64,000 nt of DNA from Isoetes taiwanensis. Lineage: Eukaryota > Streptophyta > Lycopodiopsida > Isoetales > Isoetaceae. Where the stretch lies: positions 10,581,240 through 10,645,239 of the forward strand of contig JAJEKV010000013.1 of NCBI GenBank assembly GCA_021234155.1. The letters are read 5' to 3'. The position numbers and the translations under genes were made by a program. The notes beneath the pieces were generated by a model, which saw only the letters and a program-made list of their open reading frames with translations, did no database searches and was not told where the DNA came from. Below, one piece after another: positions 3,691-61,600 of the stretch. Numbering within the stretch: position 1 is the stretch's first letter; each line of letters begins with the position of its first letter.

Positions 3691-3715
3691 AAACGGCGTC
3701 GGATACTTTAACAAT

Positions 3716-26760: not shown

Positions 26761-26879
26761 CATCTTGACCATACAACTTATTAACATCTCCCTCCCTAAT
26801 TGTGCTCACGACAATACAATAGGCAGAATTTGTGTCAAAATAGTACGTGTTCCTGATGTCCAAAATATTGACATGTGAA

Positions 26880-27640
26880 TTAGGACTTCAAAATTTACCA
26901 CAAAGCGTATTATCTCATGCATGTCAAAATTTGTATCTCATGTACATGGTCAGGAAATTACAAAATTGTCGATGCACTTGTCCATCTCAATCCCATGTGG
27001 GCTCGATATCATGATCCGCGATGTGGTTGGGAAGCGAAATGTGCGCCCATAAAAACTTAAATACGCACTGGCATTTGAGGTTGAAAGTATCCCATCAAGT
27101 GGTGTACCTTCACCTCCCTGGTCATGGACCCCATGAAAAGTTGGAGTCCGAAAAGGGTCTTGAGAAAAAGAATGTGAAGGTACATAGTCCGAACCGAATC
27201 CACCGCACAGCCAAGAAGTCCAAAGTGTTGGGGACTTGGTAGTGAGCCGAGGAAAAGAAATGGGATGTATCAAGCATACACTATCATCAAACCCATCTCA
27301 AATGATCAAGTCATGTAAGATCATGACCCTACATTCATCATCTTGGAGCACTCCATCCAACCCCATCTCAAAATGATCGTTACAAGACCATGACCTCACA
27401 TTCATCATCTTGAAGCACTCATCTAATATGAGCTTGTTATCAATAAGTGGTAGAACTTTCATGAGGATACTGCAGAAACGTAGAAATGAAAGACATACAA
27501 AACACTTGGGATAAATTGACACCGGGTAAACCGCATACTACGTTTTAGAATAAATGCCATATACAAATCCTAATATGTCATTTTTTTTAAAATTAATTGG
27601 TTGAGGCACCTCGCCAAGTACATCCAGCAATACGTACGCA
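26880..27640. other. End of duplication copy 1; 70-bp tandem duplication
   Basis: Units starting CATCTCAAA(A)TGATC at 27294 and 27364 share ATGACC, ACATTCATCATCTTG and GAGCACTC / GAAGCACTC. No gene is recognised. The junction to copy 2 contains about 15 bases (GCAATACGTACGCAT) not present at the far end of copy 2. Confidence 0.7.
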
Positions 27641-34081: not shown

Positions 34082-37000
34082 TCATTTGGAACCAAGAAAT
34101 AGGATCCCCATTTCTATGCCTGCTTGATCGATCTTGGAATGTATGAAGCTATGGCGGAGAATCAAATTCTACCACGGAACAGTCAGACCGGATCTTGTTC
34201 TTGAGGGACTTTACCATCGAGGTCGAATTTGCTATTGAGGAGGACTCACATGCATTTCCGGGACAACCAATCTCATCAAAAAGATGCAAGAGAGAGGCCG
34301 GATATGGGACAAAAAACGTATTAGAAGAAGGGTGAATGATTCTATGGAATCACATACTAAATCAAGTTTCTAGATTGAATCAAAAGTAAAGCTTTTGCTG
34401 AAAATTATTATGGGATAGTAGATTGGACTTTTATTTGGGTCTGTTGTTGGAAGGCCCTAAAAAGAGGCTATTGTGAAAAAAGAGATTTATTTGAAAACCT
34501 TAGGATGATGGCCTCAAGAAGTGAACTAACTAATAGCAATGATGTTTGTCGCCCAAACACGTTGTTTCTTTCCATGGTAGTTGGAAAGGAAGGTAAGACA
34601 CAGCAGAACCTGCTGGCAGGGAAGGCCAAAATCCCCCAAAATTGCATCCTAGAAATATGCGACTAGCAGCGAAGGAGGAAAAATGTCAGCACATTATTGG
34701 AGCAAATCAGGCATTAGCAAGACTTAAAGCTAAGAAAAATGCCATAGATCGTGCTATGAAGGGAGTTGTTAAGTTCACGGTTAGAAGATAATACAAAAGT
34801 ATCACCAAAGGTAAAAAGAATTGTCAAGAAGACAATTCAAGACATCGACATTAATTACATGCTAGTATTTTAGGGTCATGGAGGAGTCACATAGTTTTTG
34901 AATTTTCACGTCCCCTAACATCAAATGTACTTTAGCTAGGAATGTATGTAGAAAGTCATGTAGATGTTTTCTACATTTTTTTTGCGAGAATTATTGATAG
35001 TCTTTAACTGTGACAAGCATGTTCCACATCATACATCAAGAAATGTTATTCCGCTTTTTCTTGTAGAAGTTATATTGACATGCTTTTACATTGAATCAAC
35101 GAAGGTATACTTGAAGCTAGCTTTGTAGAGATGTCTTCTGAATGTAAGAAAAGGAAAAGCGAAGAAGGAAGCTACTTGTAGATATGAAGTAGATGTCGAA
35201 ATATGTAGATGCTTTTCATACAGAGTATTGTAGCTGTTAATAAAGCAAGGATGTGAGTTTTGAGGAAGAAGTAGCTTAGATGTAAAAAGAATGTGGAAGA
35301 TACATTAAAACATATAGAGATAATACACGTTAATATTTTTGCCAGATACGGCGGTCGTACTTTTACTTACGAGGCTGAATTATACCAAATCTTTGTTGTC
35401 GGCATCAAAAGTCAAAAGAGTGGCATCAGGGCAGGTCCGAATACTTAGGCTTACTCCTTGCATCACGAGAAAAGCACAAAAGGGGAGAATACCTGGCACA
35501 TTTGTGTGAAGCATGGCCGGCCGAATTTATAAGAAGGCTTTCAGCTATGATGAGTCCAGAATTGGACGAAGAATTGTACTTGCAATTGCTGTGTGTGCTT
35601 GAGGAAGTTAATCACGAGGATTTGCTGCTTCAAGCGAAATTATGATATTGTGAAGACGCGGCTTTGGAGAGCCATGAGTATACAGAGGCCGTGAGTGGCA
35701 CAAGCTAGCTGCATGGAAACAAAGATGGCGGTTGTGGGGAGAAGCGGTTAATTGAGTTGTGTCCACGAGGAGAGAGAAGGATGTAAAACTTGCTCGGGGA
35801 TTGATTAGATTGGCAGAGTCTATGAAAGAAGAAGAAACTATGTTAATGAACAGCTAAGAGACTTCGCGAGATTGGATTGACAAGAAGAGGCGATTAAAGG
35901 AGATGTTGGACCGCACATGTTGACCATATGTCTAAGTTGCTATATCACAATTTACACATTTGGCTGGCGCATTGGCGGGTTCGAAGGGTACATCTGAACA
36001 CTTAGCGGCGGGTGTTGCTATGTTGTTGATTTTCGAAAATTACAAACCATTCGAAAAGCATTGATTCAAGCTTCACGGCATTGGTACAATGAACAAATTA
36101 GTATTACCAGGTTGCGCTTCACCATGTTCAAGGTAAATGGCAGATTGAAAATGTGTACTCAACATTGGGGAACGATAAACTCATTTTTCCACTTGCATTT
36201 TAGAAGTTATTCCAAGAAGATGCGCACTCAAATGGTTGCAAAGAGAATGGTGGTATGCACCATTTGAAATACCATTTGGTTTGAGATGCAGATGGTTGTG
36301 CAGCCAGTTTAAATCTGAAAAACATTTCTATCTGTTGTAAGATACCATATTCAACATAAGATAAAATCAGTGGAATTCTTTGGTTAGAAGAGGGACAATA
36401 GGGGAAGGGAACACCACGATGAGAAGAGGCAGAGAGGAAAATCTCTAAATTGTGACTTGAAGAGAATAGTAAGAAAAAGGATGGGAAGATAGTAAAATGC
36501 AAACTATTTTAGTGTCCAGAGTGATGAAAGAGGGAGAAAAAAATAAGTATTGAAGGGTACGATACAGGGAGGCATTGCGACATTGATGGTCCCAGCACAT
36601 GATATGTACTTTCGTAAAAGCATGCAATCACCCATTATCAATGAAACTCAAAACGATACTTCTAACAAAAATGTAGCCAGGCCTACTGCTTTTTAGCTGC
36701 CATCCCGAATTTTGAAGAAGGTAGCACAACTTACGAAAATCTTGACCATAGCTAGTGAGGTGATTCACGAAAAACTAAGAAACGATATACGTCAATGCAA
36801 AAGAATGACTGATGAAATTTGTACTGGGCAAATGGCAGGGATAATATTGACGTGCTGCCGAGGTCCCAGTGATTATTTTGGATGTACTTCGGAGCCTTGA
36901 TCTCTTGGTCCTTATACCATCCTTGATTGCAGTAAACACAATATTACTTTCGAGGTAGATACCATGGATGACTATGGAAAGCTTGTTTTCGGTGGTAGGG

Positions 37001-37215
37001 TTATTACATGCTGGCTGCGGTCCTGGTATATGGGAATCTGAGGGTTACCTACTGAAGAAGGTTTTATACCTCCACGTGTGGGGGGTGCAAAAACGCGTGG
37101 AGCGATCCAGCACAAAAGAGGAATGAAAAAGAAAAGTATATGCATATGAAGCCCATCTCGATGCCGAGATGCTTTATTAGGAAATGCACGAATTATGCAA
37201 ATGCTTTTAGCAATT
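34082..37215 (+). pseudogene. Transposase-like gene of the SDGC / GHGKGEHDG family (copy 2)
   Basis: Duplicate of 22868-25950, more heavily frameshifted. Recognisable pieces are the N-terminal basic region with ATGCAAGAGAGAGGC, KRDLFENL, the AATTGTACTTGCAATTGC part of the Cys cluster (about 35570), HWYNEQIS (about 36080), DGCAAS (about 36288) and the HGKG/HDG region near 36395-36425. TCTCTTGGTCCTTATACCAT and similar inserts absent from copy 1 occur near the end. No frame is long enough to be functional as written. Confidence 0.65.
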
Positions 37216-37679
37216 TACATTCTTTGTATCCAAGTTTTACCTTTGTATGAGGCACATAATTGGTTGTCATGTGTTGCCGTGAGTGTTCGTCACTTGTTTT
37301 CAATATTAAAGTGAATACATTGGCTGGTAGGTTCGAGCGCAATACATGTACCAGAAGACACTGTACTTGGCAAGCAAACTTCAAGGTTAATGGCTGCAGC
37401 AAGGTTAATGGATTTCACATATTTAAGTAGGTATATATGCTATGGTAGAAACCATTTTTGGAAGTGCCTAGTATTTGTAGTTTTGATTTGCAACTGTCCA
37501 CGTACTAAAGATAACTTATAACGACATAGCTCAGTATGCCTCTTTTAAAAAAACAATGGGGGACACTTTATATTGTATCCTTTAGAATGGGGGGACTTAT
37601 ATGGGGACACTTATGTTGTACCCTAAACCATAACTTTGGCTACTTTAGAATTGGTGGGTCTTTATTGACCTTGTAAAAA

Positions 37680-38045
37680 TAAAAAGTGTTAACACAAAAT
37701 TTTAAGTTTGACATCTACACAAAGTGCTGAAGTGTTAGCACTTGTGCAAGGTTTGACATCTTGACACAAAGTGCCAAAGTGTTAACACCTTGTGCAAGGT
37801 TTGACATCTGACTTTAAAGTTGCACAAAGGTCTGAACCTTGGCGACATTATTGACCTTGTAAAAAATAAAAAGGGGACACGAGTTTTTTTTCCCTTTATA
37901 CAAGTTATTTAACACTTGTGCACAAAGTGTTAACACCTTGTGCCTAAGTGTTGACATGTTTGTCACACCACTTATAACGTAATTATTTTAACACGTGCAT
38001 AAAGTACTAGTACTTTTTTGCAATGTTTTGACATCTGACCACTTA
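37680..38045. repeat. CACAAAGTGTTAACACCTTG array, second copy
   Basis: Counterpart of 26401-26760 with the same two alternating motifs. Individual motif copies gained or lost one to three bases. Confidence 0.85.
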
Positions 38046-38585
38046 TACAACTTATTAACATCTCCTCCTAATTGTGCTCGACAATACAATACACCCGAAT
38101 TTATTATGTCAGTAACACATGTTCACAATAATCATCATGACATAATTAGAACTTCAAAATTTACAAGCGTATCTCATGTACATCCCAAAATTTACAACTA
38201 TATCTCATATTTGCATGATGGAAATTTACAAAATTGAAATGATACACTTGTCCACATCTCGAGAAATCCCATGAGGCTTTTCGGTGTCATGAAGTCACAC
38301 GATGGGATGGAAGCAAAAAGAGATGTGCACTTATCCCAAAAACTGAAATACCTTGCACTAACATTTTAGGGGATGAAATTGTATCCCATCAAGTCAATTT
38401 GTACCTTCACACTCCCTCGTCATGGACCCATGAGAAAGTTGGAGTCAGGTGCGAGAGAGAGGAGGGTTCTTGGCAGAATGTGAAGGTACATAGTGGGAGT
38501 GCGAGTCACCGCACGTAAGTCAAGTGTTGGGGACTTAGTGAGCTCAAAAGAAATGGGATGTATCAAGCATACACTATCATCAAAC

Positions 38586-38733
38586 CCATCTCAAATGAGA
38601 ATCCCAAGTCATGTAAGATCATGACCTCCACATTCATCATCTTGGAGCACTCATCCAACCCATCTCAAATGATCCAACTCATGTCAAGACCCACTGCGAT
38701 TTCACATTCATCATCTTGAAGCACTCATCTAAT
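38586..38733. repeat. 70-75-bp tandem duplication, second copy
   Basis: CATCTCAAATGA-starting units at 38586 and 38661, counterpart of 27294-27425. Confidence 0.8.
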
Positions 38734-40347
38734 ATGAGCTTAAGTTGTCAATAAGTGGTAGAACTTTACGAGGATAATTTAAGAACAGGAGAAATGAAAA
38801 GACATACAAAACACTTGGGATAAATTACGACCTTTGGCCGAGTAAACCAGATACATGTAGCTTTTAGAATAATGCCATATGGCACAACTTAATATGTCAT
38901 TTTTTAAAATTAATTGGTTGAGGCACTACCAAAATACATCCAAAATTTTGAAGGCAACTAGGCCAAAACAAAGTCTGATTTTTTATGCGAGTGATTCCAT
39001 TAGGGCGCTGAAGGTATTACCGGTATCCAAATTTTATACAGCTTATGATATCGAAGCATAAACCAAAGTGTTGATCAAACCGAAAATTGACTGTTCATCC
39101 ACAAAACTCATAAACAAATGGTTAGATTCATCTACCAATCGACACATCCAATGGCTTCTCCATCTTCACACACATTTTAGCGAGGGCTTCTTTGCGTATA
39201 TGCTTCGCCGCCTAGCGATAATCGTGTGTGAAAACGGCCTCATAACTCCGTGCATAGTGCATTAAAACAAACAGAAATGTAAAATGGTGTAAACTAAAAG
39301 CTTGCAAGAGAATTGACACTTACCTTCAACTCCCAGGCTCCTTATTTTCCACAACCTACGTTCTAAATTTGTTACGCTGTGCCATCTTTTTTTACAAGCC
39401 TTAATTAGGCCGGTCCGGTGTTTGAGGTACTTCCAAGATGTTCAAGCCCCTTCACATTATTGACTACCGGCGAATAAAATCAACACCGCTGAGGTTTGAC
39501 TCATTGATCAATATCTAGCGTATGAAGCCCTGACATGCACATTTAAAGTAGAAATGTAAATATTAAGTAAATGTAAATGGATGGGAAAGTACAGGAAATG
39601 CATACCCTCTAATTGCCTACTCATTTGTCGCAAAAGCTTTTAGACTATTCAATATAAGTGAACTGGATGGTGCAATAAGAACTATAGGATTCCTACGCAA
39701 AGGCAAATATAGCCAACACAGTGCTCATTCTCAAGCAGGTAGAAGAACATCTTGGCATTTTGACATAACCGGCCCTTTCATCCCCTTTGTTTCCGCGATA
39801 TCTACAATGTTTCTTGAGGCCCTGGGGTTTTTCTTACTTGCTGTAGCTTCCTTGAACAAGTGAAAGTTAAAAGATGGATAAAAGAAAATCTTGTTCTTCC
39901 ACTCGATGGCAAATTATGATGGTACCTACAAGAAGATAAGGTCATAATTATACTTCATTATAAATACACAAAGAATAGGAGATGAAATAAGGAAATTACA
40001 TCTACAACACCTTGTGCATACACATAAAATACGTTCAATAAGGCGGCTTGTCAATAGGTACGTAGTTCTTCAAGGTCAATATCGCCATTCATTGATCTGG
40101 GGGGCTATCCTTTAGGGAAATTTCGTGTAAGAACAACACGACCACCTACAAGGATCAAATTGAAGTGTCAAGTATCATGCAGTATAAAAACAAATGTTTC
40201 ATAATATTACTAGCATCAAGATCGATTCTTCACCGGATTTAGAATCTTCAAGATTTTGTGTCTTCAACAGATTTTTGCCTACAAGAAATGGTGTGAGTTG
40301 GAAGAAATGGTGAGTTAAGATGAAGTGCATAATTTTCTTAGCTGCGC

Positions 40348-40602
40348 CTAGCCGGTGCATCCTTTCTCTGCTCGAGTTTTCCGCTTGTTATTGGGGGAGC
40401 ATCCTCCTCCTTCATTTATAATCATTTCTATAGTCACGTGCTTTCTTATCTTCATCTCGCTATAACCAAGTAGAAATATGCAATTCCCATGAACAAATGT
40501 TACTGCTTGATGAGCTTTAAAAACCAAACTAGTTACAAGTTCACGCCATTTTTTTCGCAGCAAATGGAAAACATATTGAGCTTCAAGACCAAAGAAGTAC
40601 AT
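40348..40602 (-). other. Unrecognised 84-codon ORF, possible exon
   Basis: Starts with ATG and reads MYFFGLEAQYVFHLLRKKWR, then KAHQAVTFVHGNC and SEMKIRKHVTIEMIINEGGG. The mixture of residues is protein-like in a region that is otherwise AT-rich, but there are no motifs I recognise and no supporting splice structure. It may be a decayed transposon or host exon. Confidence 0.2.
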
Positions 40603-41618
40603 ATGAAGTGCTCGAATAGGTAGTGTAAGACAAACACAACTAAAGAATTAAGTAGCTAAATACTTATACTATCAAAAACAAGTTAAAAAGAACATTCATT
40701 AAATGGCGCACCTATTGTAGAAACCTCAACAATACCGGTACTTTTCCGTGGGCAAAGGGGATTTTTGGTCAATATTCTCGGCCACCTACTTCACCAGATG
40801 AATGGACAAATATAAGCTAAATTAATGATGACACTATACAAAATAAAAGTGTCTCGTCACCTTTGATAGAAACTCGTTGTCGTCAAGGAAGCCAACTCTA
40901 AGATCCAAATTTGGGATCTTCGAAGACTAATTCCACCGCAATCACATCTTACAAATTAGCAACTCAAATAATATTGAAGCTTATATCAACTCAATTAAAT
41001 TTGAACTTATCGATTCTGGCATTGCCATCTCCACAAACTTTCCTGATTCATTTTTTTCCCGAGCCGCGGAGAGAATGCCTTAATAGGGTGATGCGCTGAT
41101 GTAGAAGGAGTCCCACGACATGGCATCATCCTTGGTTGGTTTAGGTTCGAGACATCCCGAGAATTTCAGGTAGCAAGGTTCTTCCTTCAAGGAATGGCTT
41201 CACACCGCATATGACAATGGCTAGTTAGCTAGACTCATATCTGAAAAATTCTACATGTTTACAAATCATCTACATGTTTACATTACAGCCGCTTACAAAG
41301 AAAGTTTCTTTTTGATGCTCCCTGTTTCTGCAAAACAAAAAGTAAATGTAATCAAAACTAACAAACAAGGAATCAAGAATGTAAAGTGTCAATAAATGTA
41401 AGTCATGCAAGAAAGCATCTACATGAGACAGATCTGCAAGTTATGCAAGAAAGCATGTACATGACAGAAATTTAAGTGAAGCAAGAAAGCATGTACATGA
41501 AAGAAATGTAAATGACAGAAAGAATGTACAGATCCAAATCCAAGCACCTTGAACTACATTCATTCTCCAGAACAACAAAACTTAAGTCTATGTAGAAGGT
41601 AAATGTCGATTCAGTACT

Positions 41619-41873
41619 CTACCAAACAAATACATATCTAAAAATAAGCACTTGCATATCAAAAAGTATTCCTACACTGTAAAATGAAATCAAGTGAACA
41701 GAATTACCTTGAGTAGAAATTCCCATATTTGCACGAAGTTCTTGAGGCCAAAGACAATGAAAAACACACTGGTTCGAAGTAGAGACACGGTATGAGACAC
41801 AAAGAAGGCAGTAGGGATGTCCACATGATGGAAACACCAAAATACTATGCCAAGGCATGCATTGCAAGATCAA
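41619..41873 (-). other. Unrecognised ORF with a RING-like cysteine pattern
   Basis: The frame includes HSILVFPSCGHPYCLLCVSY, in which CGHPYCLLC matches the C-x-H-x2-C-x2-C centre of RING fingers, with cysteines before (LQCMPWH) and after (NQCVFHC). The outer C-x2-C pairs of a canonical C3HC4 RING are not clearly present, so this may be a decayed exon or a coincidence. No neighbouring exon was found. Confidence 0.22.
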
Positions 41874-42434
41874 GATGTGTTCTTCACATGAGGATTTGAT
41901 GCCTTACTATCTCACGCAAGAACAGGATCGATGCAAGGTAATTACATCTGATGTTTCAAGATGTAACATCATGTCCTTTATCCTACTCTTTCACTAATTT
42001 CATTCATCTCCAAATCCTTGCTGATTTCATGGATGGCAAGTATAATGTCTCCGTGAACTCTAAGTCATGTCTTCATTGGCTTTGTTAAATTTTTTCATCT
42101 CCTCCATAAAACTTGATTTTTCCTCTTCAAAGTAACTTTGCCAATGCCATTTGCAAATCTATGCCCCGCTGCCTTTAGTGTCAATTTTGGCAAGTCGAAA
42201 GTGTTTATCGCGGCATCGATTTTTGGACAACCCCTACTTAATGTTTCTCTCACTCTCTAGCCCGCAAATCTCTATCAAGAAGCTCATACCTAACCCGTGA
42301 ACAGAGACCCGTGAGCCGCAATGTGGTAGTGCGAGGCCCGACGGAGGAGTCGAGAACATCTCACTTCCCCACTCCGCATTAACGCATCTTGACCGGATGA
42401 TGTTCCCAAAGACCGTGACCATTGGAAAGGCGGA

Positions 42435-43600
42435 GTGTCATGGAATTCAGCCTCGGACGCTTTCCCGGTGGTCATCTTCACGCTTGAGAGCGTGCATGAG
42501 CTGGTGGCCATCCCAAAGCGGCCGGGCCGGAAGTTGAAGGGGACAGCTCAGACGCTGACCGACTTGACCCCCAATGACGTTGAAGAGACCCGGCGTGAGC
42601 TGGCCAAAGTCGGACGGGCCAGACATGGAGGGGCAGCTGGCTGGTCCGGGAAGGGATGCGGAATTCGTGCAGCCAAATGTGGATGTGCACCTTCGCCCCC
42701 GAAGTCCCTCTCGAGGCGCACGTGCATCCACATCTTCCACTCCCCGGGACCACCACTACCATCGGGACCTGGCGATGCATGCCACTAAATAGGGATCGTG
42801 GCCTCGGCCTGTGGTATCCCCGAATTGCCGCGCTTTCCATGGCGTAAGGGGATAGCCTCACCTGGCCGCCATGGACATGGACCTTATCTTCCTCATGGAA
42901 ACATGGGAACATGCTGGTCACGTGCTACCTGATTTTGCCAGATACCGCTTAATTCGCCTTCAATGAGTGCACCGGAAAACGAGGGACACTGGAGGAATTG
43001 GGCGGTTACTACCATACTTTTGGCCCAATCGGCCTCCCCGCGCAAGGCGTATGTGCACAACGTATACGGGTACGAGTGCAGAATACCGGACGGCAGCCCT
43101 CCTCTTTGTGGCGCTTTGCTACTTCCCGCATGATGAGAGCAACTTTACCACACGCACTTGGATGTGGATGGCGTGAGCCCTATGTCGATCTATATGATGA
43201 CATACGCCAGCATGCATAATTGGGCAAGGTCATGTTGCTTGAGACTTCAATGCGCCAAACAGTGGACAGAAAGCAGATCCCAAAATTTGACCTCTAGCCG
43301 AGGATGTGTTGCAAATGACCCCGCAGAGATGGTTTGGCCAAGGGCGCCGATGACGCCAGGTGTGACACCTGCATGGCCGCAGCCGCCGCTAAGTCGGGCA
43401 AGATCTTTGACCCGGTCATTTGCAATGGTTGGCATGGGCGGGCCCTCCGCCGCTTCATTTGTAGACGGAGAACTGTGGGGGCGGCACCAGGGTGGTGGAT
43501 TACGCGGCTAGCGCATGAGCAATGCCTCACACTTGATCACCGCTTCGCAGCTCCGGACAGTGGCCGGACGAGGAAGTAGACCACCATCAGCCCGCGCTCT
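42435..43600 (+). pseudogene. LINE N-terminal region and apurinic-type endonuclease (EEP) domain, broken
   Basis: The first open part has RPGRKLKGTAQTLTDLTPND and EETRRELAKV, with no known motif. From about 42870 the EEP fold motifs are visible across frames: LIFLMETWEHAGHVLPDFA (the E-T-W motif), ALLFVALCYFPHDESN, a GDFNA motif in which the Gly codon is now a stop (GHVA-stop-DFNA near 43228), VICNGWHGRAL (about 43416), WWITRLAHEQ, and a (S)DHH-like VDHHQP near 43578. This endonuclease nicks target DNA in target-primed reverse transcription. It is inactive here through stops and shifts. Confidence 0.7.
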
Positions 43601-44239
43601 GCAGATAGATTGGTGCCAACCGAAAGCACCCATTGCCCCAAACACCCCACAAAACCACGGTAAGGCCCGACTATGATCATGCGGGCGGTCTATGCGCAGC
43701 ATGCTTTGAGCATGAGCTGCCGGAGGCCGCAACTCCCCACACAACAACAACAGACGGCTCCAAATTAACCAGTCCCTTCGAGGGTAGGGGACAGATGCTT
43801 TGGGAGAGGCCGCCTCGACGATCCACGTGGGCGGGGCAATCACCTTCCCTCGCAATCACCGGTTCGATGGACTAATGTCGGGGAGTGAAACGATGCCTCC
43901 GCCAAGTGCCGGACCCCACCATTCGCCTCGCTGTGCCGCCCACACACCGCCCTTCCTCAAGACCAAGAAAGCTGTACCTTGCAGAGCACCAAAGAATGAT
44001 GTTTGGTCTTCTAGACCGCCACCCTAGGGCCTTCTCGGGGAGAAAGGTCTTGAGTAAGCCTCAGACACTCTACTGTGGAAAATATTACCGAGGAACAATG
44101 GGTGAGATACTTGCGCCACTCGTGATGACCCAATGGGAAGCCGGCACCGGCATTCAGAGCATGTGCCTAGCAATCGGGTCATTACCGGCGGGGATGTCAT
44201 AATGGCCCGTAAACGCCTCGCAAACCGAAGGCGCTAGAT

Positions 44240-46015
44240 TTGGATGGTATGCGTGCGAGCTTCAAGTGGGGTCGGCCCCCAATGGTGCCGCTTCACAAAG
44301 ACTTTCAACAAGGCATTGCAAGAAGGTTTCCTCGCGACCGACTACCGAGAGTTGTGCCCATATACAAAGTGGGGGACCCCACACCAAAGTACCCAACCAT
44401 CGCATTCATTATGGGAGGCTCGCTCTTTGCCAAGTTGCTTGCCGGATTCTTGAGCGGCGCATTGACACTTTGGGCGAGGATGGAGAAGTGCTGCTCACGC
44501 AGTAAAAGCCCGCCTCCAAGATTCTACTATTGACCATATCTTCACTCACAACACTCATAGAGGATAGCCTAATCGACTAAACTGCATCGCTGTTTTGTGG
44601 ATTTCGCAAAGGCTTTTGACACAATGCTGCCTGGATAAGTTGTGGGATAGATTGAGCCTGGGGACCCCCGCCGACTTGCGTAATGCTATATACGCATTCA
44701 TAATGCAGGCTTGCTCCTGGCCGCCTCTCACAATCGCTGTCGGGAGCCCGTTGTTAGTAGCATTGGGGTGCGCTGTATGCCCTCTATCCCCGACGGCTCT
44801 CGGCTTGTACATTGACCAGCTAGAAGAATGGCTAGCCGAGCACCGGGAGGCGCCGCTGATGCACCACATAATCCGCAACTCATATATGCCGATGATGTTG
44901 ACCTGCCGCATATACCCCTGCAGGACATGCAACGCCACCGGATGCTTTGGACACTTTTTGCCAATTCATCGACATGAGAGTTAACTTGGCCAAGACAAGG
45001 GTGCTGCTGGTCCCATCATTCGCACCCACGCCTTCCCCTCATTCACTTACTGGGTAGGTGTAGTGGAGGTGGCTCGGCCTTATAAGTATTTGGGCATTGA
45101 GTTTTCTACTACCACACACCGGGATGCATCCATCGTTACGGGTCACCGCAGCCGGAAAGCCCTCAGATGCAATGCAAAACAATGGCCACAAGGCATGGAG
45201 TCAGTATGCATGGGGTCACCAGCACACTTGTTCGTGGCCTTGGTTGAACCGGGTCCTCCCTATGGGGGAAGTGGGGGGGCTGATATCCCTCACCACTTGG
45301 AACGATCTAGAGCAGTACGAAGGCCTTCTTGGCGAAGCAATCGGGAGTGAAATCCACGGGCCCCATATCGATCTTGCTCCAGAGACAAGGCTTCCTTCCA
45401 TTACAGAGGGTCGCTACTGAACGTCACATTATTTACTTCCAGAAGGTGGTGGCTATGGATGAAGCCCGACTGCCCAACCTTGCTTTGGCAGTGGCGATGG
45501 GCCCGCAGCGACTCAAAGCCTGCTGGAAAGACAAGCAAGCCCAATGGTTCTTGCTATGGAATGTGCAGGCACACAGATGTGGACCAGTGCATACACCGAA
45601 GGAACGCGCTGCCTTGAAGCAAAATTTTGGATGCTTGCTTCATGGCCAAGCTTTGGGATGCAGAGAGGCCCCGCCACATGTCAAGGTGGCAAATTATCGA
45701 CGCCAACAGTTAATCCCATGTCACACGGGGCCCACACCACTACCTGCGCACCCATCTACCCATGAAAAGCGCAGGTGATTGCTTCCTTCCATTCGCTGTG
45801 CACATCGTGGAGATGGATTCGAGCCGCTGGAGACAGAGGCCAATGCCGCAACAGGCCATTGAGGATGAAAGTCATGCCCTCCGTGCCCGTCGGGCGACAG
45901 CATATCCGGCTCAGATGCTCGGCTAGTTGTGCCCCATCGCCTTGCATGAGCTATATAGGTTTGTTGGGATCGGTGAGGTAATGGATACGCTTTGACCGCT
46001 TATGCCCCCCGTCCG
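44240..46015 (+). pseudogene. LINE reverse transcriptase and C-terminal region, frameshifted
   Basis: Across frames the RT motifs are VPIYKVGDPTPKYP, the first catalytic motif FVDFAKAFDT (44594-44625), LGLYIDQLEEWLAEH, IYADDVDL (about 44881-44905), RVNLAKTRVLLVPS, YKYLGIEFSTTTH and RHIIYFQKVVAM followed by RLKACWKDKQAQWF. These match the frame at 11080-12527 closely, but with a frame change every 50-150 bases. The zinc knuckle of the C-terminus is not intact (RQRPMPQQAIEDESHALRAR-like remains near 45835). It is a dead copy, or one whose sequence is badly indel-damaged. Confidence 0.82.
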
Positions 46016-46221
46016 GACATTAACACCTGCATTTCTTGGATTATGTATATAATCAGGCAAAGTATGTCAAGATCCTTATTGTTACTAAGGTTTTTCCTTA
46101 AACCCTTCTGGCGGGGTTTTTTAACCCGGTAGTAATATACTGGCCGCTGCTCTCTTTGTACTTGGGTCCCATAGGCCAGTTGGTCTCCGTGGACGATAAA
46201 ATCATATTCTATTCTATTCTT

Positions 46222-46329
46222 GTCCTTCAACTCCTTCAATCTGCTAATCAAGATAGTAGCATCCACAAGTCTACTCTCAACCAATTTCTTCAACCCATCC
46301 ATCCGTACTAAAACCGCCTCGTATGGCAT
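46222..46329 (-). other. Protein-like 36-codon frame cut by the LINE tail
   Basis: The minus strand from an ATG at 46329 reads MPYEAVLVRMDGLKKLVESR and VDATILISRLKELKDK, and then enters the antisense of the LINE 3' end at 46221. It looks like a genuine helical host (or other element) sequence at the insertion point. Upstream, another frame reads RCYTCGDPKIVQCKIC, a Cys-rich phrase. The family is not recognised. Confidence 0.25.
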
Positions 46330-48420
46330 TTACCTTGCATATTTTACATTGGACGATTTTAGGGTCACCGCATGTGTAACATCGACTCCTTTTGCTCTTT
46401 TTAGCGTAAATAGCATTCTCCTTTACCTCATTCGGTCAATTTGTATGCCTTTGTAATGAAGTGCAAAGGCCCTTTGCAAAGTACAATGGAATGTGATGGT
46501 TATTGATCTCCGCCTTGCTGAATACATGCTCATATTTTTAAGAAAATCTGCCATCCAAACCCCTTGATCCCGGCATCTTGGTAACCCCTAACACTGGTGG
46601 TTCAGAGCCCCAAACATCATGAACCACTTGCAAATGCACTGAAAACCGAATCAAAATTGTAGGTCCTAAGTCGCCTAATGCTAACCTTGAACTCTCGCCG
46701 CAATGAAGATTTTCCAGAGTTGTCTTTAGTTTCCTCACGCCGCCGATGGCTTAGGCTCGGGTTGCCATGGGCTTCAAACCCTTGGTTCTTGGCGACTTTC
46801 CTCGACTGATCCGACCTTGCCGCTTCATTGCTTCTTGCTGCTACTAATAGGGCTTGATCAATCACTAATGAATGCACAAAATCACACCCTCCAGCAGTTT
46901 AAAACCCTAGCTACCGGGGTCTAGGTGATAATGGGAGAGTATCGGCTTGGGGGTCCATGATTGACCTTGCAAAGGTCTGGCTATGGCGGGAGCAGCAGGG
47001 TTGGGAATGGGCGGGATCAAAGAATCGAGGAAGGAGGTCTTTTTTTTTTTAATTTTTGAAAATTAGTGCATTAAAGTTTCCCAACCCGTTTGAAAATTAG
47101 GTACCCCCTAATAAATGAGACCTCAAGGGGAATTTTTTTACATTTTGCCAAATGTAAATGTATAAAAGTGTCCCTTTTTTTGCCCACCCTTTCATGCTTC
47201 TACCCTTAAACATGCAAATAAGCTCTTGAGGATAAGCTCTTTAGGAAAGAAATCTGGAAAAGCACAAATACAATGAGACAATGACATAAAAAGCATCATT
47301 ATGGTGCTTCAAAAAGGCTTTGGAAAAGAAAAACTTGATATCTCAACATCTCAACTAAAATGACGATGTATTTATATGGTCTCGCAGACAAAATCAAAAT
47401 AATCAATAGGGTCATGCATTTCAAACTAAAGAAAAGACATCTGCTATGAGCAACCTTACATGTTGCACCAAAATCAAACAAAATTAGCAGTCCTCAACAA
47501 AAGACCCATTGCAAAGATAATATGTTTGATCATGAAAATCCAAAAGAAATTTCAAAAAAAAAGTGATTACTTCCAGCAAACAAAAAAGTTATTGAAGCAT
47601 AAAAAAAAAAAAACAAACATGATTTTCTATAGAATGCTGATCCAGCCTTACTGGATCTTGCCAATACTTTGCTCTGCTTTGTGACTGCTTGGATTTATTA
47701 TCTTGGATGCCAAAATGGAAGTATACATTGACAAATAGATTTTTTGAGTGATTGCAACAGGGCATATGGATGACCAATGGTCACTGCAATCGTATTATTC
47801 CTTGAAGCCAACAGCAGCCATCCAGTATATTTGTATTACTACATATATTTCTAGAGCTAGAAATAACTCAATACTTATAATGTTTCCTTGTCCAAGATTC
47901 CATAAGTTTGGAACAACAAAGAAGATGGAAGTTAAGTCTGCCGGGTAGCTAATTTTACCCTCTTATCCTAAATTAATAGTTAATTATATGAGCTTCTTAA
48001 ATATATTACTTGCTGATGCATGCTAATACAACAAAGCACCTGCGACTAAAGCTCCAAAGGCCAAGAACTCTGAATGAAAGAGAAGAAGCCAACAGTAACA
48101 GATGCACAATCAATTGACCATATTCCAGACAAATCACATTAGGAACATCAACAACAAAATGGCCCATATGACTTACATAGGACTGCTCCAGACCGTCCAC
48201 AATTCCTGCAACTTAGCCTTTAGGGATCCAGGCTGTCAACTGGCAAAGCTTGGTATCTTTACTCATAACTCTTTTGTGCTGAGCAAATAAGCTGCCTTAG
48301 AAGTTCTTTTGCATTTTGCTGCAGTAAAGCATTGGTTTAAGGTAAAGAAAATAGAAGACACAAAGAATTTGAAGCAGAAAATGAAGAAATAAGAAACAAA
48401 TTCACATAAGCAAGAAACTC
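46330..48420. other. No recognised gene
   Basis: AT-rich with poly(T)/poly(A) runs (47039-47050 and 47600-47612). The frames at 46538-46877 on the minus strand are weakly protein-like, but no start, splice or family evidence was found. Confidence 0.4.
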
Positions 48421-53300: not shown

Positions 53301-53887
53301 CACAACTTAAACAAACAATTTGAAAATCCGATTTATTGCTAGCATTTAGCGCTTGTTATTAATTATTAACACCTATGATCTAACATTTATAAGAAAGGCA
53401 GAAGCGAGGGATGTTGCGTGGATCGTCCGACTAGATTGTGCTGGTGGGACAAGAACCGCATTATGAGAGGTCCTTTATAGAATTATGGCACATGTCAACT
53501 AGATTGGGACGGTAAGTGCATCGTGATGATTGATATGACCTCTACGCTATTATTACTATCAAATCATTATAGATATATGGGTCCAAAATGCTAGACCCTA
53601 GCATTTTAGCACGCCCTGGACATGCGTCTTTGGAAATGTCTTTGGTAGAACTTCATGCCCAAAGTTTCGTCCAACGGTGTATAAGGATGCATGTATGGCC
53701 AAACGGGTGCCATACATGTGTTTTTTCGTCAAACACTCTCTCTCTACTTGGGAAAAGAATAGCAAGAACGATTTGGAGCAGGTTTGAGCTTCGGAATGGC
53801 AATTTTGCAGCCATATCATCAATTTTGTATGAATCGGTTGCATTCAGCGGGAAAAATTGGGATGAACCATTTTCTTTTGATTACAGG
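50330..53887. other. No recognised gene; one 30-bp tandem duplication
   Basis: AAAAGGGATAAAGGTAAAAC is repeated at 53135 and 53165. Short frames at 50886-51068 and 53588-53938 are unassigned. The end of this stretch supplies an acceptor (TTTTGATTACAG, ending at 53887) for the transposase-like gene. Confidence 0.45.
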
Positions 53888-56800
53888 TCTTTCTTCAAAG
53901 CAGTGGAGAGCAATGGATTGGGAACGACGTTTCTCTGAATCTATTGCTAGAACTGGTTCAGTATTGAATTGTAATGAGTTGCTCTCCAATCTTCACCATT
54001 ACGAACACGTAACTGCTGAATTTAGTGGTATTTGCTCCAATTTGGCACAATCGATTCTTCATGAGAAAGCAAATTCTAACCCTAGACCTTCTGCCAATGA
54101 AATGTGTCCTAAAAGTAGTGAAGATTTTGGTGATGAACATGATCATGAATTTGGTGATGTAGGCCAATCTGGTCTATTCAATGAAACTGCAAAATGCAAT
54201 AGCAATGGCAATTGCAATTGTGATGCTGAAAGAAGGCGCCTTGAAGCTGAAAGGAAGCGAATTTGGAGACAAAAGAAGAGGGATCTTGCAAATGCTAACA
54301 AAGAAAATCATTCCCCAGCAAAGGTAAGCATTCGAAGGAAGCAACAATTGTCCAAAAAGCTGGTTGGTTCTATGAAGAAAGCAGTAGCAGAAATCTGCGG
54401 TGGCCTTCATCCTGATCTTCTAATGCTGCTAAAGCACTCAATCTTATCAATGAAAATGTTATCACTGATTACAAGACAGTAAAAAAAGTTGTGGAAAATT
54501 TGAAGAGCTCATTTGATTCACATAAATTGGCTAGGAGGACTGATGTCTTGAGGGCCAGGACTGCTACCATGGTTTACATGGTAGATTCAAACATTATGCG
54601 TTCGCCTATATCTAGAACATTTAATTTGAGCAGAAACATTGTGAGTGCAGCAAGAACTAGAAGAGTCTTTGCTGAACAGGGTGAGGGACTGTGGTCTATG
54701 TTTACAAGAAGAGTTAGAAGTGATAGATTTTCGGATGAGATTAGAAAAATTGTTGTGGAATATTGATTTTGCTAATACCGGGTTTAGCCCAACAAGAAGG
54801 ATGTTTTAAAAATAAGGATAGCACGAAAACAGAAGGTGCTTCATCCTTTACATTTCTTGGAAGAGACTCAGGTAACACCACTGTTATGTTTATGATAATT
54901 ATTTTGTTAGCACTTTTCAAACTCGTAATGATCATATTTTTCCTTGAGCAGGTGGCTTTCTTTCAGCGTTTCAAAATAGACCATCCTGAGCTTAATATCT
55001 CATTGACAGCATTTGTAGCTTTGAAACCAGAGTTTGTCAGGAAGATAAAAGATCGGGAGACTTGTTGTTGTGTTCATCACATGAAATTGGATTATATCAG
55101 GTTAGCAATTAACAAAATGAGGAATGATTCCAGGATTCATGGTCAAGATTGCACATGCAATTGTGTTGTATGTGGCTCTGGGCCAATTTGCTTAGCTAAG
55201 ACGAGTACTTACATGTCTACTAGTGAGTTGTGGAGGTCTTTGACTTGTCCTAAGGCTGAAACTGAGGAATGGTACAAGCATGAATGTCTGCTGCTCCAAT
55301 GTAAGAAGTGCGGCCCCTCAAAGCTTCCCGTTTGTCCAAAACAGAAGAAAGACGAGCACTATATGATTGATTGGAAAACATTTGAACAGGTATCCTCCTA
55401 AATTTTTAAGTTTCTTATGTGTTCTGTTATAATGATGCTAAAGTGTTAAAATAAGTTGTTTTCAAGCTTGATTTCCATGTAGAGTCATATGCATAAGCTC
55501 TCACCATGTGCACGTAGGGCTTGATACTATTCAGTTAAGCCAATCAGTGATGTGAATTAGGATATTGCACAGTCTGCAAATAGTGGTCTAGGACGGGCTG
55601 ACAAGAAGGATTAAACAGTTAAAGTCTGGCTTTTCAAACTAATGCATTCTATAGTTGGTTTATGCATAAATCTGAAAATAGAGGTAACTTATTGATACGA
55701 TTATGCATTTGTGTGCTCTTCTATCTGCAAAATGCTTATGTTGTCTGTTGTAAAACTGCAGGTCCATGACCAAGTTGAACACATTGATGATAAGGGGGCC
55801 TCCAAAAGTAGGAAGAAATCTGTGGTCAAACTTGCATACAAGACCACTAGCACTGCAGTTGTGCTGGAGCATGCCGAAATTGTTTTGAAAAACTTTATAC
55901 CTCATAACTACGAGGCCAGATGGCAAGCACAACAATTTAGAAATTGTCTAGCCACATTTCACGAAGGTACAGTAGTCTCAATGATTGATTTCGCTTAGAA
56001 CTACACCTTCAAGATTCAACAAGAGATTCAGAGCTTGCATTGGAGGAATGACCAATATAGCATATTGGTCCACATCACCTACAGACATGCTCCTACAGTT
56101 GATGCAAGTCATTTGAACGAATTAGAAAGAAGGATAATAAAAGAAACACATTTTTATATTAGAAACGATCGAGAACATGATGTATTGTTTGTGCAGCACT
56201 GTCTAGACAAGCATGCTAAATTCCTTGAGTAGGAACGTGCGCACATAAACGAGCACATCATTTGGTCCGGACGGCTGCCCATCGATTCAAAGGGGCTAGA
56301 CAATTCTTTTTATCTTGGTAGGTCTTTCCAAGCAGCGAGGTGTTAGATAAAGTGTAACTATTTTGGTTCCTATCATGGAAAAGGTATTTGTTCATTTAAT
56401 ATTTCTTACTTCTGTTTTTTTTTCAGCAGGCATGGTTGTTTTGCTTAAATATAAGGACATATGTTTGATACAATAGAGCAAGATGTTGCCACTAAAACTA
56501 CCAATTGTTATTTCTTTCCTCTACTGAGGAGAACATGATGGAGTGGGGTTGTGATAAAGCTAAAGGCAATGACATTTGAAATGCTCAAAAGGGATTCTGT
56601 TCTATTGCAAAATGCTCATGATGATCTGTAGTCTTTCTGAAGCAACACTTTAGTAATTGCCAACATTTAGAAGACAAGTCCATATTCAGGTATATTAATT
56701 CAGTCAAAGTATAAGCATTACTTTTGAACAATAGTATGCGCATTTGTGTTGAGAAATTATGTAAGACATCCACTATGCTACTGCAGATTCTTTTGGGAAC

Positions 56801-57552
56801 TAAAATTGGACGAGGTGGATAGGAGTCAGAGATTTGACTGCGAAACCTTAAAAGGCTCGAGCAAGTTTCATGCCATTCGACCAGTGCAGAGATTAGACCC
56901 TAGCCAAGTTGCCCACATGAATTTTTCTTGCTTTTGTCATGCTTGTTGGAAGGGAAAGTATAGCAAGTTGCATGAATAGGTCTCGAATTGGGACATGGCA
57001 ATACTCTGAGCTCAATCCTGGTGTGCTAGATTTAGCAGAATTGGTGGATGGCCCTGTTTTTGAGGGTGATGCAGATTGGAAGTCAGATATTATTGATATT
57101 GGCGATAATTTTGTTTGTAGTAGCGTAATTTGGAAACAAAGAAAATGCTGATTTTTTACTTGCTTAGATGCACGAAAAGTAAACATGTAGTGGAGAAAGC
57201 ATTTAAGGATCCTTGGGGCCAACATTTTGCCAGAAAGGAAGTTGTCTTAACAGGTACTTGGTATGAAAATCTTGGCAATGGGATGTTCGAGTTGTTAAGA
57301 AGAAAACCAGATGCCAATGTATACAGCCACTTGGTCACAACATGCAATTTTGAGTTGATCCACAAAGGTGGTGACATGTACTATTTGACAGAACACCTAC
57401 ATGAAATGATCATGGATAGTTTGCCTGACATGTCTACAATAACAGTTGATGTTGCTGGAAGTTCTGGAAGCAGTGGTCAAGAACAGGAAGATGACATTGT
57501 GACTGCACCATGTAAGAAAATATCGAAGAGGTCAAAAAATTCTGCTCCTTGA
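53888..57552 (+). pseudogene. Multi-exon transposase-like gene, SDGC / HGKG / GEHDG family
   Basis: Exons with GT-AG introns: 53888-54871, 54952-55389, 55762 to about 56386, one or more short exons including 56527 onward, and 56787-57552. The N-terminal part has a CNSNGNCNCD stretch and a basic coiled region (ERRRLEAERKRIWRQKKR). Next come helical blocks (KKVVENLKSSFDSHKLARR, RTFNLSRNIVSAARTRRVF). A Cys/His cluster follows (CCCVHH, DCTCNCVVCGSGPICLAK, LTCPKAETEEWYKHEC). Then the core: MIDFA-stop-NYTFKIQQEI, SLHWRNDQYSILVHITYR, WSGRLP (a shifted SDGCP) near 56261, CNYFGSYHGKG (56356-56386) and GEHDGVG (56527-56545). The C-terminal part has FDCETLKGSSKFHAIRP, FCHACWKGKYS, FYLLRCTKSKHVVEKAF and VYSHLVTTCNFELI. 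One frameshift near 54425 and a few stops break it. The RNase H-like nuclease role is inferred from spacing of invariant Asp/His/Glu. The family has no name that I can give. Confidence 0.7.
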
Positions 57553-57599
57553 TTCTGATTAAACAATAGTTGGTGGCAATGATCATCCTTCTGCATAAC

Positions 57600-57860
57600 T
57601 GACGTTAGCAAGCAGACCAAGGGCTTTGGAAATGATAATGAAAAGAATAAAAGAATGAGACCAAGGGTTCATGTACAGCAGTAAGAAATGATAATGAAAA
57701 GAATAAATTCTTTAATGTTGGTTAATTTTGAGTAAGTTATGTTCGATTAGAGGTAAGTTATGTTCGATTATGTTCGATTGCATGGTTTAAGATTTGTACA
57801 TGGTTTAAGATTTGCATGGCTTATGTATATTTGCATGGCTTATGTATATTTGCTGTTCTT
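57600..57860. repeat. Nested short tandem duplications
   Basis: GAAATGATAATGAAAAGAATAAA occurs at about 57628 and 57686; GTAAGTTATGTTCGATTA at about 57733 and 57752; CATGGTTTAAGATTTG at about 57782 and 57801; GCATGGCTTATGTATATTT at about 57814 and 57834. They fill the gap between two convergent genes. Confidence 0.88.
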
Positions 57861-57894
57861 CATCCTCTGATTTAAATTTCGTTTGCCAATACTT

Positions 57895-58636
57895 TCACAA
57901 GAAGGTGGCTTCTAAATCCAAGTAATCTTTCTTCTTCTCTTCTGCCATAGCAGCTAAGGACTCTAACAGTTTGTCGGAACTGGCCAAACTGCCTTCAATT
58001 CGGAGCAGTTCTTGCTCCTTCTCACGTAATGTCTGCTCAATCTCATTTTTTTCATTAAGAAGACGCTTCATTTCACAACTAATGGTGGTAATGTTCCCCT
58101 CAAAAGAGTCCACTGTTGGACCTCGTCTCCGTTTATTGATATCATTGGAGCACTTTAGGGACTCTGCTGCAAATTTTGCCCAATCTACCTTGTAAGCATT
58201 TGGAGCAGCCTGGGCGCGGAAGGTATGAGACCATGCAAATGCTCAGGCAAACAATGTTCTAACTTCTGAATTCTTAAGGCCTCTCTGGTACACTCGAAAG
58301 ATGAGATCATGCAATTCGTCTTCAAATTGTGGCTGGATTTGAGAAACATGCAGTTTACCACCACGAAGATGGGACTTCCATACCATTTCAAATTCTTGTG
58401 GACTGACATCCTTCTTCTTGACCGTCCTAGCTTGGCGGCCATTGTTGGATAAACCCCTAAGGATGTGGAATTCCTCCTTGTTATTGGCAATAGGAAGCTG
58501 AAAAAAATGTCAAGCTAATAAGTATGTGTATAGAGCCGCATGCATATTAGTTTTCTTGCCAAATAAGTACCTTTTCTCGTGACGTGAACATCTCACAATC
58601 TACACGTTATGCTTTAGTGTTGTACATGTAGCAGCC
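57895..58636 (-). pseudogene. Two-exon gene with C-terminal coiled coil, family unknown
   Basis: Exon 58636-58571 (GCYMYNTKA-stop-RVDCEMFTSREK) joins through a clean 73-nt GT-AG intron (58570-58498) to exon 58497-57895. The joined frame reads LPIANNKEEFHILRGLSNNG, RQARTVKKKDVSPQEFEMVW, SHLRGGKLHVSQIQPQFEDE, a stop after RTLFA, then WSHTFRAQAAPNAYKVDWAK and a strongly helical tail (EMKRLLNEKNEIEQTLREKE, LESLAAMAEEKKKDYLDLE). Splice signals keep the frame, and only two stops interrupt about 220 codons, so decay is recent or partly technical. It converges on the transposase-like gene with their ends about 340 bases apart and could be its companion ORF or an unrelated host gene. Confidence 0.55.
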
Positions 58637-61600
58637 TAAAATTTCCAAATGAACAACAACAATCTACCTAGCATAAAAAAATTATCAGAAAAGACAGCAA
58701 AAATATTAGAGATTTATTTCATAAAAATTGTTACCTGGCTCCATGAAGAAATTAAGCCTTGCTTCGAAGAATCCGTTAACCTGCTTAAACAATTGGTTGC
58801 ACAAAAATTTGAGACACCATTAAGAAGGAAAGTTTAATTGATAACCAAGTTAAATAGAGGCATCAAAATTTAATCCAAACATAGGTTTTAAAGCATGCAA
58901 ATTGTAGAGGACATAGTAACATTCACATTGCTTAGTTCTAGAAATGCTGGGATTTTTTAGAAAAGAATCTATTCTGTGCAGATAATTTCACTTTACCTGA
59001 AATGCAGAGATAACATCAATTTTAGCCTAAAATCCTGGCCTGAGAAAAAACCATGCATTAGACTTCTGAAACATGTTTATATTCACAAGTTCTTCCTTCA
59101 ACGATGCAGATTATGAAAGAATAGCAAAAATGAAACCGACTACATGTTACCTGGAGAGCTGCCTCAAGAAATCCGGTCTCTTCGAAATAGGTTCTCCCGC
59201 TCTCGAGCCTTCATGCCATTCTGTCCCTTCAAAAAAAAAAAGGGAAGCCCTTCCGCCCGTCATCGAATTTCTTTGCATACGTCGAGACAAGCACAAAAAA
59301 AAGTGCTAAAAAGTGCTACAATTTCGTTTTTTTGCTTAGGTCTAGCATTTTTTCACCCATATGGCATTCAAATATTCGGACATATTGTGTTTGTTGACGA
59401 TTCTCCATTATTATTATCATCATATCATATCACATAGATTTGAAATGGGATTATGTTATGTTTTGAAATTAGGAAACGTGCCCATTTAGTTCCATATAAA
59501 TAAAGAGTGTTATCAAATGTTTGGACATGGTTCAGGCTACTTGAGGTGCTCGACTTTGCACTCCTCATATTCCTAAGGTAGCCCTCTTGCTCATTGCATT
59601 GCTAAGTCTCCCCTTCTCATCCATTTTTTCCTCTTATAATGTTATAGGCCTATACTATTATTTGTTATTTCAAGTTATTAAACATAACTCAAGTTATTTA
59701 GATGCTCAATGTTTTATGAGTTGACAACGGCCCTTCATTTCAGATGGGCATGCCATTGCCGGAGGCCATTGTTATGATGACGTCTAAGATAAAAAAATTT
59801 CTATATATAACAATTAAAGGGAAGGGAGATGAGTTATACCACGTCGAGTGTGGTTGTCAGAGCTTCTTTTTGATACATTATCTGTGGATCGTTTTCTCCC
59901 TAATTCCCTTCTTAATAAACTAGAAGTAATGGAAACAAATTATCCATCTGGCTTCATATTCTACTACCTTGAAAAATACATGGGTTGTGGCTCCCTTGGC
60001 CCTGTAGGCATCTTCAAAGTGGAGGCGAAATGGTGGATGGTAGGATAGAGGTTGGGATATTCAGTTACAGTTAATTTAGTAGTTGACAGTTGGTCATGTG
60101 TGGATTATCGAATGTACTTTGAATATTTTAATACTGATATTGGCACATATTTAATGTTACGCGGAGGTGTGGGGTTTGATATGTGCATGTTTAGATCTAT
60201 TTTAATTTGGTTTTTCACTCTTGCATTGTAGTACATGGCAGAATTAGTTGAAAGGACCGCTGAGGCTATAGTTGTAGATAATGGAATTGATGAATCCTCA
60301 ACTGCACATATGAATACACATTTGAACAATAAAAAGAAGAGCTACAATGTATCTGGGATGACTATTGGGAAGCGCAATCTGCAGAAGTACAGAGGAAATC
60401 AGATTGCCTTGCATATAGCATCATATAGGAAGCGTACTCCTCAAGTGATGACGAAGAAATTGCAGCCACAAGTGGATAGACATGTATTATAAGATACATA
60501 TTTGTGAGACGATGGCGTGATCGAGGAAAAAGACTTTTAGATGAATTGATCACTTTGTGTGCTTGTGATATTTAGATAATCATGCTATTAATATGGATGT
60601 ATTATAAGACACATATTTGCAAGACGGTATATGCTAGCAGTATAAGCCGATTATAAGATATATATATTATGAGATGAATTGCAAATTATGCCATTTTATG
60701 CTACATAATAAATAGACAATATTTTTTAAATGTTAAAGTAATGATCTATGTTGTAGAAGGAACGATGAATTGTATTAGACCCATCACAAGATATATGTTG
60801 TGAGATGAATTGCAAATTGTGTCGTGCATATTCACACGGGGGGTGACTCCGGGCATCGAGGAGTCGTTGGATGAGCATATATGCCTTTTATTCCTCGATC
60901 TAGACCGGTATATAGATCCTCGTTTGTGGGGTATGCCAGTGCACAAGTTTTGGTATCTTCAGATATAACATAGTTTATAAATACTATAAGATTTGAGACA
61001 ATGTAATATATGGTGTTGATTTTGTACATGTATAACATGATTTTAAGGGCTCTCCTTCCCCCTAAATCACCCCCGTGTGAATATGCACCCAAACCAAAGG
61101 GGGATTAAGGGGGAATTTTATTTTTAAGTGTGGAATGCAATGGTTTGTATTAATTAATGTTAATGGTAGTTATGTGTTGGTAGTTATGCTAAAAAATGTT
61201 TTTGGCCCTTCGGGCCCCAAGAAAGGAGGTAAACTTTAATGGCCTTAGGAATTGTGTAAAGATTGATGAAAAAAATAGAAAAGCATTTAATACAAACCAA
61301 ACAGTTGCATAATTCTCATCATATGATTATGTGAGAATCGATAGAAATATCAACATATTGCCACAATTTATTGAACTTACATGGCATAGCAAATACTGTA
61401 GCATCAATATAAACATATTGAATATGCGTGGCATAGCGAATACTGTAGCATCAAACACTCCTTTGAGATTTAATAAACGTGTGTGAATAGGGACGACATT
61501 TGTCTACTTAATGCTTATAAATTTGGTAGCGTAAATCAGATTAATGAAACAATGCATGCCGACCTTCAAAATACCAAAGAAGATTGTTTAACACCCAAAA

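Follow-up and report, generated by a model that had tools for sequence, protein, structure and literature searches.

A putative two-gene DNA transposon family absent from the searched domain libraries in the lycophyte Isoetes taiwanensis

Introduction

What kind of gene lies at positions 53888-57552 of a 64,000-nucleotide stretch of the Isoetes taiwanensis genome (contig JAJEKV010000013.1; hereafter the window, to which all positions refer unless another region is named), and does it belong to a mobile element or to an ordinary host gene family? The original prediction, made from the sequence and its open reading frames, described a transposase-like gene family with several exons and a set of regularly spaced core motifs, for which terminal repeats were still missing. 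Motifs resembling its HGKG and SDG signatures are presumably also present in uncharacterised animal proteins, and no account of such an element was found in the titles and abstract openings of the open-licence literature. Here, we have compared the locus with its relatives throughout the assembly (1,658,258,908 bases in 1110 contigs). The stretch is very probably (at a rough probability of 0.85) the decayed remnant of a cut-and-paste DNA transposon with two genes, the first of which (gene A) is presumed to encode the transposase. The family to which it belongs is a genuine family of DNA transposons that were once mobile; it is absent from the domain libraries searched and possesses an unusual second gene (gene B).

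Extent and ends of the element

The element occupies 53579-59358 (5780 bp, forward strand), as delimited by inverted ends, 4-bp flanks and the borders of similarity between copies. Its left end, GGGTCCAAAATGCTAGACC (53579-53597), and its right end, which reads GGGTGAAAAAATGCTAGACC on the reverse strand (59339-59358), form an imperfect inverted repeat beginning with GGGTCC on the left and with GGGTGA on the opposite strand. The left end of the family is GGGTCCAAAAATGCTAGACC, in comparison with which the window copy is one A shorter, and its right end, read on the other strand, is GGGTGAAAAAATGCTAGACC. The tetranucleotide ATAT adjoins the element on both sides (53575-53578 and 59359-59362). In an alignment of seven regions, similarity to the window started at 53575-53579 in L003, L004, L005 and L007 and ended at 59360 in L003, and it began later, at 53718-53719, in L002 and L006. 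Termini of the form GGGT...ACCC are found in the window, L003 and most other elements, and full elements of the window family span 4.8-9.3 kb, apart from a 232-bp deletion copy (L019) that has kept both ends and is flanked by TAGG. The terminal repeats missing from the original prediction have thus been located; the interval that it proposed does contain the exons of gene A but covers this gene only.

Several other features were observed in the window. A perfect 19-bp inverted repeat, with its arms 227 nt apart, gives 60824-61088 a MITE-like appearance, and a similar stretch is present in L004. On the reverse strand, a 481-aa open frame (11080-12525) resembles, by eye, a LINE reverse transcriptase, and a 220-aa open frame (17259-17921) resembles, again by eye, a plant aspartic protease, near which lies a tRNA on the same strand (18560-18632).

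Target-site duplications and empty sites

Flanks were compared in 13 elements with both ends read, including 12 of the window family (the window copy, L003, L008-L011, L013-L017 and L019) and one second-lineage element situated in the window. L001, which represents the same insertion as the window copy, and L002, L004-L007, L012 and L018, in which the right end was unread, were left out, and the right border of L011 was placed at the CCC of its mutated end. Identical 4-bp flanks were present in 10 of the 13 elements (ATAT, ATCT, GTTT, AAAA, TAAT, TGCC, TTAA, ATAT, TAGG and TTAA), compared with 5 of 156 mismatched left/right pairs; when the positions were shifted, none of the 13 agreed at any of 19 shifts. 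The three elements without matching flanks are L016, whose ends are mutated, and L008 and L009 (contig C1037, 13578944-13594187), which are neighbours with similar flanks and whose AGCT flanks agree crosswise, as if they had recombined after duplication.

Empty sites were sought by joining the flanks of an insertion with one copy of the duplication, which was done for three of ten prepared insertions. An uninterrupted site corresponding to L014 was found on contig C1030 (99% over 110 of 110 bases). The best site for L019 lies in a repeat and was 93% identical over 110 of 110 bases (40 of 1550 first-look candidates scored), and the best site for L010, 86% identical along the full query, exceeds it in length by 8 bases and is hence weaker. 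Taken together, the empty sites and the 4-bp duplications indicate insertion in the manner of cut-and-paste transposons, and insertion by transposition may be regarded as demonstrated by these sequence comparisons; the target would be cut with a stagger of 4 bp, giving rise to the 4-bp duplication.

The same observations bear on the explanation that a host gene family has been spread by segmental duplication, without transposition. Both flanks of L001 (contig C1073, 5459952-5469951) are common with the window over nearly the whole 10 kb, and this region is best described as a segmental duplicate of the window element and its flanks; the neighbouring L008 and L009, with their similar flanks, also fit such a process. 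As an explanation for the family, however, segmental duplication is contradicted by the 4-bp duplications and the empty sites, and in L003, L004, L005 and L007 the similarity begins at the inverted end, so that we consider it extremely improbable. The data are equally at odds with the copies being single-copy orthologues at syntenic positions without mobile ends. Alignment of genomic copies, which had been suggested as a way to find conserved ends and target-site duplications, recovered both, and the mobility implied by a transposase-like gene family is borne out by common ends, matching 4-bp flanks, empty sites, a deletion derivative and dispersed copies. On the whole, the original interpretation is partly supported, the RNase H-like nuclease that was proposed along with it being a putative one (see below).

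Copies in the genome

Searching the genome with a 501-bp probe, for which 40 of the 49 first-look candidates were scored, returned 42 matches, more than chance would produce; in 11 of them, counting the window, identity was 90-100% over 409 bases or more. Probes for the right and the left end gave 40 and 46 matches, respectively, some of the latter being two pieces of one copy. The window family as analysed here comprises 20 regions, namely the window and L001-L019, of which L001-L007 came from the 501-bp probe and L008-L019 were added after the end probes. Within the element of L001 there is an insert of approximately 1.1 kb, and L005 carries a diverged relative (piecewise identity of 30-57%) on the strand opposite to the element, at about 3565-4889, which is reversed and adjoins the close copy.

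More distant relatives were approached with protein queries. For the exon-3 protein of a relative there were 8156 first-look candidates, and each of the 150 that were scored matched (E <= 4.4e-80). A second-lineage query gave 4805, of which 150 were scored, and the MULE model PF10551 gave 1021, with all 150 scored places above the cut-off. Since these first-look totals are rough, come from queries of different lengths and are not copy numbers, the abundance of the family is described as very many copies.

Structure of gene A

Gene A of the window lies on the forward strand and consists of five exons. Exon 1 (53913-54871), located by tblastn with a relative and by its donor GT, starts with MDWERR, contains a basic stretch and has stops and a frame change. 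Exons 2-4 were defined by frames, tblastn and splice borders: exon 2 (54952-55389) is open and contains a Cys/His cluster with CTCNCVVC; exon 3 (55762-56383) encodes the core from DFAEN to HGKG, with internal stops and with SDGC off frame; and exon 4 (56529-56689) encodes GEHDG and the subsequent helix region, with a frame change. Exon 5 (56787-57552), placed by tblastn and splice borders and searched as two pieces (e5 and e6), is broken. The four introns have GT or AG at each of their eight borders with the exons (positions counted by eye), in agreement with the predicted multi-exon structure. In tblastn searches with relatives' exons, stops were seen in exons 1, 3 and 5, and the frame changed in exons 1, 4 and 5; the window copy of the gene is therefore broken.

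The core motifs were found where the original prediction had placed them. CTCNCVVC in exon 2 and HWRNDQYSI in exon 3 lie in open frames, exon 3 finishes with YFGSYHGKG and exon 4 begins with GEHDG, and SDGC is indeed shifted, the exon-3 frame of the window reading ...HIIWSGR in comparison with WSDGC in relatives. In L013, e5 and e6 form a single 260-aa frame, and gene A is thus assigned five exons in this relative. Other lineages have fewer introns, as illustrated by a 570-aa frame in L020 and by a 629-aa frame in L050 that starts upstream of the Cys cluster and reaches almost to the C-terminus.

Conserved residues, selection and fold of the gene A product

An alignment of 14 cores (A2; 35-57% identity to the first row, two lineages) was used to examine conservation. 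The Asp of DFAEN/DFSEN (D1) is invariant in the 13 rows that reach it, the Asp of SDGC (D2) in all 14 rows, including that of L020 with SDDC in place of SDGC, and HGK is kept in 14 of 14; the Asp of HDG (D3) and a Glu further on are each found in 11 of the 11 rows reaching them. The number of intervening residues is 40 between D2 and D3 and 53 between D2 and the Glu in both L050 and L020, which represent one lineage each, and the spacing between D1 and D2 is 83 residues in L050 and 93 in L020. In view of this invariant acidic set at fixed spacing, a DDE/D nuclease is the favoured reading, and we infer that gene A encodes a DDE/D (RNase H-like) transposase. DFAEN would supply the first and SDGC the second Asp of a metal-binding set, the third ligand would be the Asp of HDG or the Glu that follows it at a distance of 13 residues, and the Cys/His cluster of exon 2 may, together with the basic N-terminus, bind the element ends.

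Values of dN/dS were 0.07-0.21 in the 13 of 66 pairs for which they could be computed (dS being saturated in the rest) and 0.11-0.21 in the six pairs with dS up to 1.03, in a non-random sample of members chosen for their open frames. Purifying selection on gene A can be considered shown at this level of comparison.

Structure prediction, which had been proposed as a check for an RNase H-like fold, yielded low-confidence models only: two AlphaFold runs with the window sequence of exon 3 alone, both single-sequence, had mean pLDDT values of 36.8 and 54.1, and Foldseek gave no match in the PDB at E <= 0.001. The second model contains three strands, a further strand and a long helix, an arrangement compatible, at low confidence, with an RNase H core. 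The top Foldseek matches (RAD52, a TBP/TFIIA complex and an LPS-biogenesis structure; E 0.09-0.14) were dismissed as meaningless.

Searches against protein families and other genomes

With the exception of a Peptidase_C48 fragment in L062 (see below), the window exons, their relatives and the A2 members reached no family cut-off in Pfam, NCBIfam or PHROGs. The profile search for RNase H-like or DDE families that had been suggested likewise returned no Pfam family at the cut-off for the A2 members (0 of 14). Five Pfam families were listed for A2 at E <= 1, each in one of the 14 members and none at the cut-off. The best of the weak Pfam matches, to Pro-kumamolisin (A2; E 0.0073, 17 bits, cut-off 23.5) and to the IFT80 propeller (E 0.00023, 20.4 bits, cut-off 27), were rejected. 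Two profile searches of the PDB gave no relative at E <= 10, and a phmmer match in the PDB to a ubiquitin hydrolase-like chain (E 0.13) was judged to be due to chance.

Profile A1 had no match at E <= 1e-3 in viral and prokaryote genome contigs, nor had A2 in viral contigs, and tblastn found nothing in phages and plasmids at E <= 0.1. A DNA pattern for HGKG..DG occurred at no viral and 27 prokaryote loci; the best tblastn match of these loci with the core (E 0.18) was judged to be a chance one.

Gene B, the second lineage and a distant subfamily

The second gene lies on the strand opposite to gene A. In the window, a fragment of it was detected at 57901-58485 on the reverse strand (tblastn with piece g2a, 95% identity, residues 1-195 of 231), which is Lys/Glu-rich, coiled-coil-like when read by eye, and interrupted by one stop; the piece with the RING part (g2b) had no tblastn match in the window. 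In relatives (L013, L003 and others), gene B encodes a Lys/Glu-rich, likewise coiled-coil-like protein with a C-terminal RING-type finger, and a homologue adjoins gene A in the distant subfamily represented by L020 (30% identity, E 1e-15), for which an inverted-repeat search revealed no element ends. RING fingers follow the pattern C-x2-C-x(9,39)-C-x(1,3)-H-x(2,3)-[HC]-x2-C-x(4,48)-C-x2-C. In its strict form, this pattern was present in one of three gene B proteins (L020), and with the last Cys pair relaxed in all three (L020, L013 and L062), compared with 0 of 2000 shuffled sequences for each protein; matches to Pfam RING models were below the cut-off. Gene B, convergent to gene A, is probably an accessory factor, and its product would most simply be a ubiquitin ligase acting on a host protein or on the transposase.

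Two copies of the second lineage are also located in the window, both on the forward strand. One is a 13.4-kb element at 33834-47205, with ends GGGTAGAAGC..., TTAA on both flanks and a broken core at 35572-36105; the other (22634-27625) has a left end and remains of gene A (24155-25208), its right end not having been found. Because both left ends are preceded by the same flank, one of the two copies is probably a partial duplicate. A fragment of Peptidase_C48, a ULP1-type protease, was detected in another member of this lineage (L062, 3607-4005, forward strand; 21.2 bits, cut-off 20.7), in one of six scanned pieces of L060 and L062, and two pieces of L060 from the corresponding region had no match. 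Since the C48 region of L062 aligns to L061 between the left end (920) and the right end (10000) of the latter, we infer that the fragment lies inside the element. Putative protein-modification genes comprise a RING-type gene in the three subfamilies looked at and, in one lineage, the fragment of a ULP1-type protease.

Relationship to known DNA transposons

Pfam contains transposase models for hAT, PIF/Harbinger, CACTA, piggyBac and other families, and none of these reached the cut-off with the window exons, the relatives or A2. MULEs, some of which carry ULP1 in plants, are DNA transposons like the present family and bring to mind the ULP1-type fragment in one second-lineage copy; however, their target duplications are 8-11 bp rather than 4 bp, and PF10551, which was positive at 150 of 150 scored places in this genome, matched none of the 14 A2 members at E <= 1. 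Tc1/mariner elements are described as having a 2-bp TA duplication (PMC10741241), in contrast to the 4-bp flanks seen in 10 of 13 elements here. According to the same account (PMC10741241), Ginger elements produce duplications of 4-6 bp, a range that includes the 4 bp found here. The ends of Ginger are TG...CA and its enzyme is Gypsy-integrase-like, whereas the present termini are GGGT...ACCC and all 14 members lack a Pfam family at the cut-off.

The nearest known kind by duplication length, size and ends is Sola as described in the literature. Sola elements are characterized, in the reviewed summary of the superfamily, as DDD transposons with 4-bp duplications, variable ends and sizes of mostly 2-9 kb, some exceeding 15 kb; they occur in moss and are uncommon in flowering plants (PMC10741241). 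A Sola1 element is on record for Physcomitrella (PMC9033089), and for amoebal Sola2 elements, 4-bp duplications rich in AT, ATAT among them, are described (PMC3627910). The family studied here shares with them, as so described, the duplication length, the inverted ends and the element size (4.8-9.3 kb in the window family and 13.4 kb in the second lineage, beside the 232-bp deletion copy). It may also share a DDD/E-type acidic set, in which D1, D2, D3 and the Glu are all invariant where present and the third ligand would be D3 or the Glu. It differs in its RING-type second gene and in its very many copies in a lycophyte genome, as against the rarity of Sola in flowering plants.

There is, in our estimate, about an even chance that the family is an ordinary, Sola2-like or similar member of the Sola superfamily that has escaped annotation in this plant, with its accessory gene as a minor variation. 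The ATAT-type duplications of amoebae and the occurrence in moss agree with this assignment, along with the duplication length, the size of full elements and the D-D-D/E set, so that homology to the Sola transposases would be expected; the summaries of Sola cited above make no mention of a RING gene, though they do not exclude one. A new eukaryotic DDE/D transposase superfamily, lying outside every described one, is a more tentative possibility. In its favour, no A2 member reached a Pfam cut-off in a genome where every scored MULE place did so, and there were no NCBIfam, PHROGs or PDB matches; on the other hand, the listed features of Sola fit, and lack of a Pfam match does not mean lack of a match in Repbase, where superfamilies are defined first by transposase similarity (PMC4455052).

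Implications

Whichever superfamily the decayed two-gene transposon belongs to, the domain libraries miss the enzyme encoded by gene A, and in plants its genes may consequently be annotated as host proteins of no known function. The core of DFAEN, SDGC, HGKG and HDG is conserved enough for a model that would find relatives elsewhere. It is a speculative and rather unlikely proposition that these elements constitute a separate eukaryotic DDE/D superfamily with protein-modification genes of its own, and that few DNA transposons in a lycophyte genome are as numerous. Should the genes of RING type and ULP1 type truly belong to the element, the transposon may act on the protein modification of its host.
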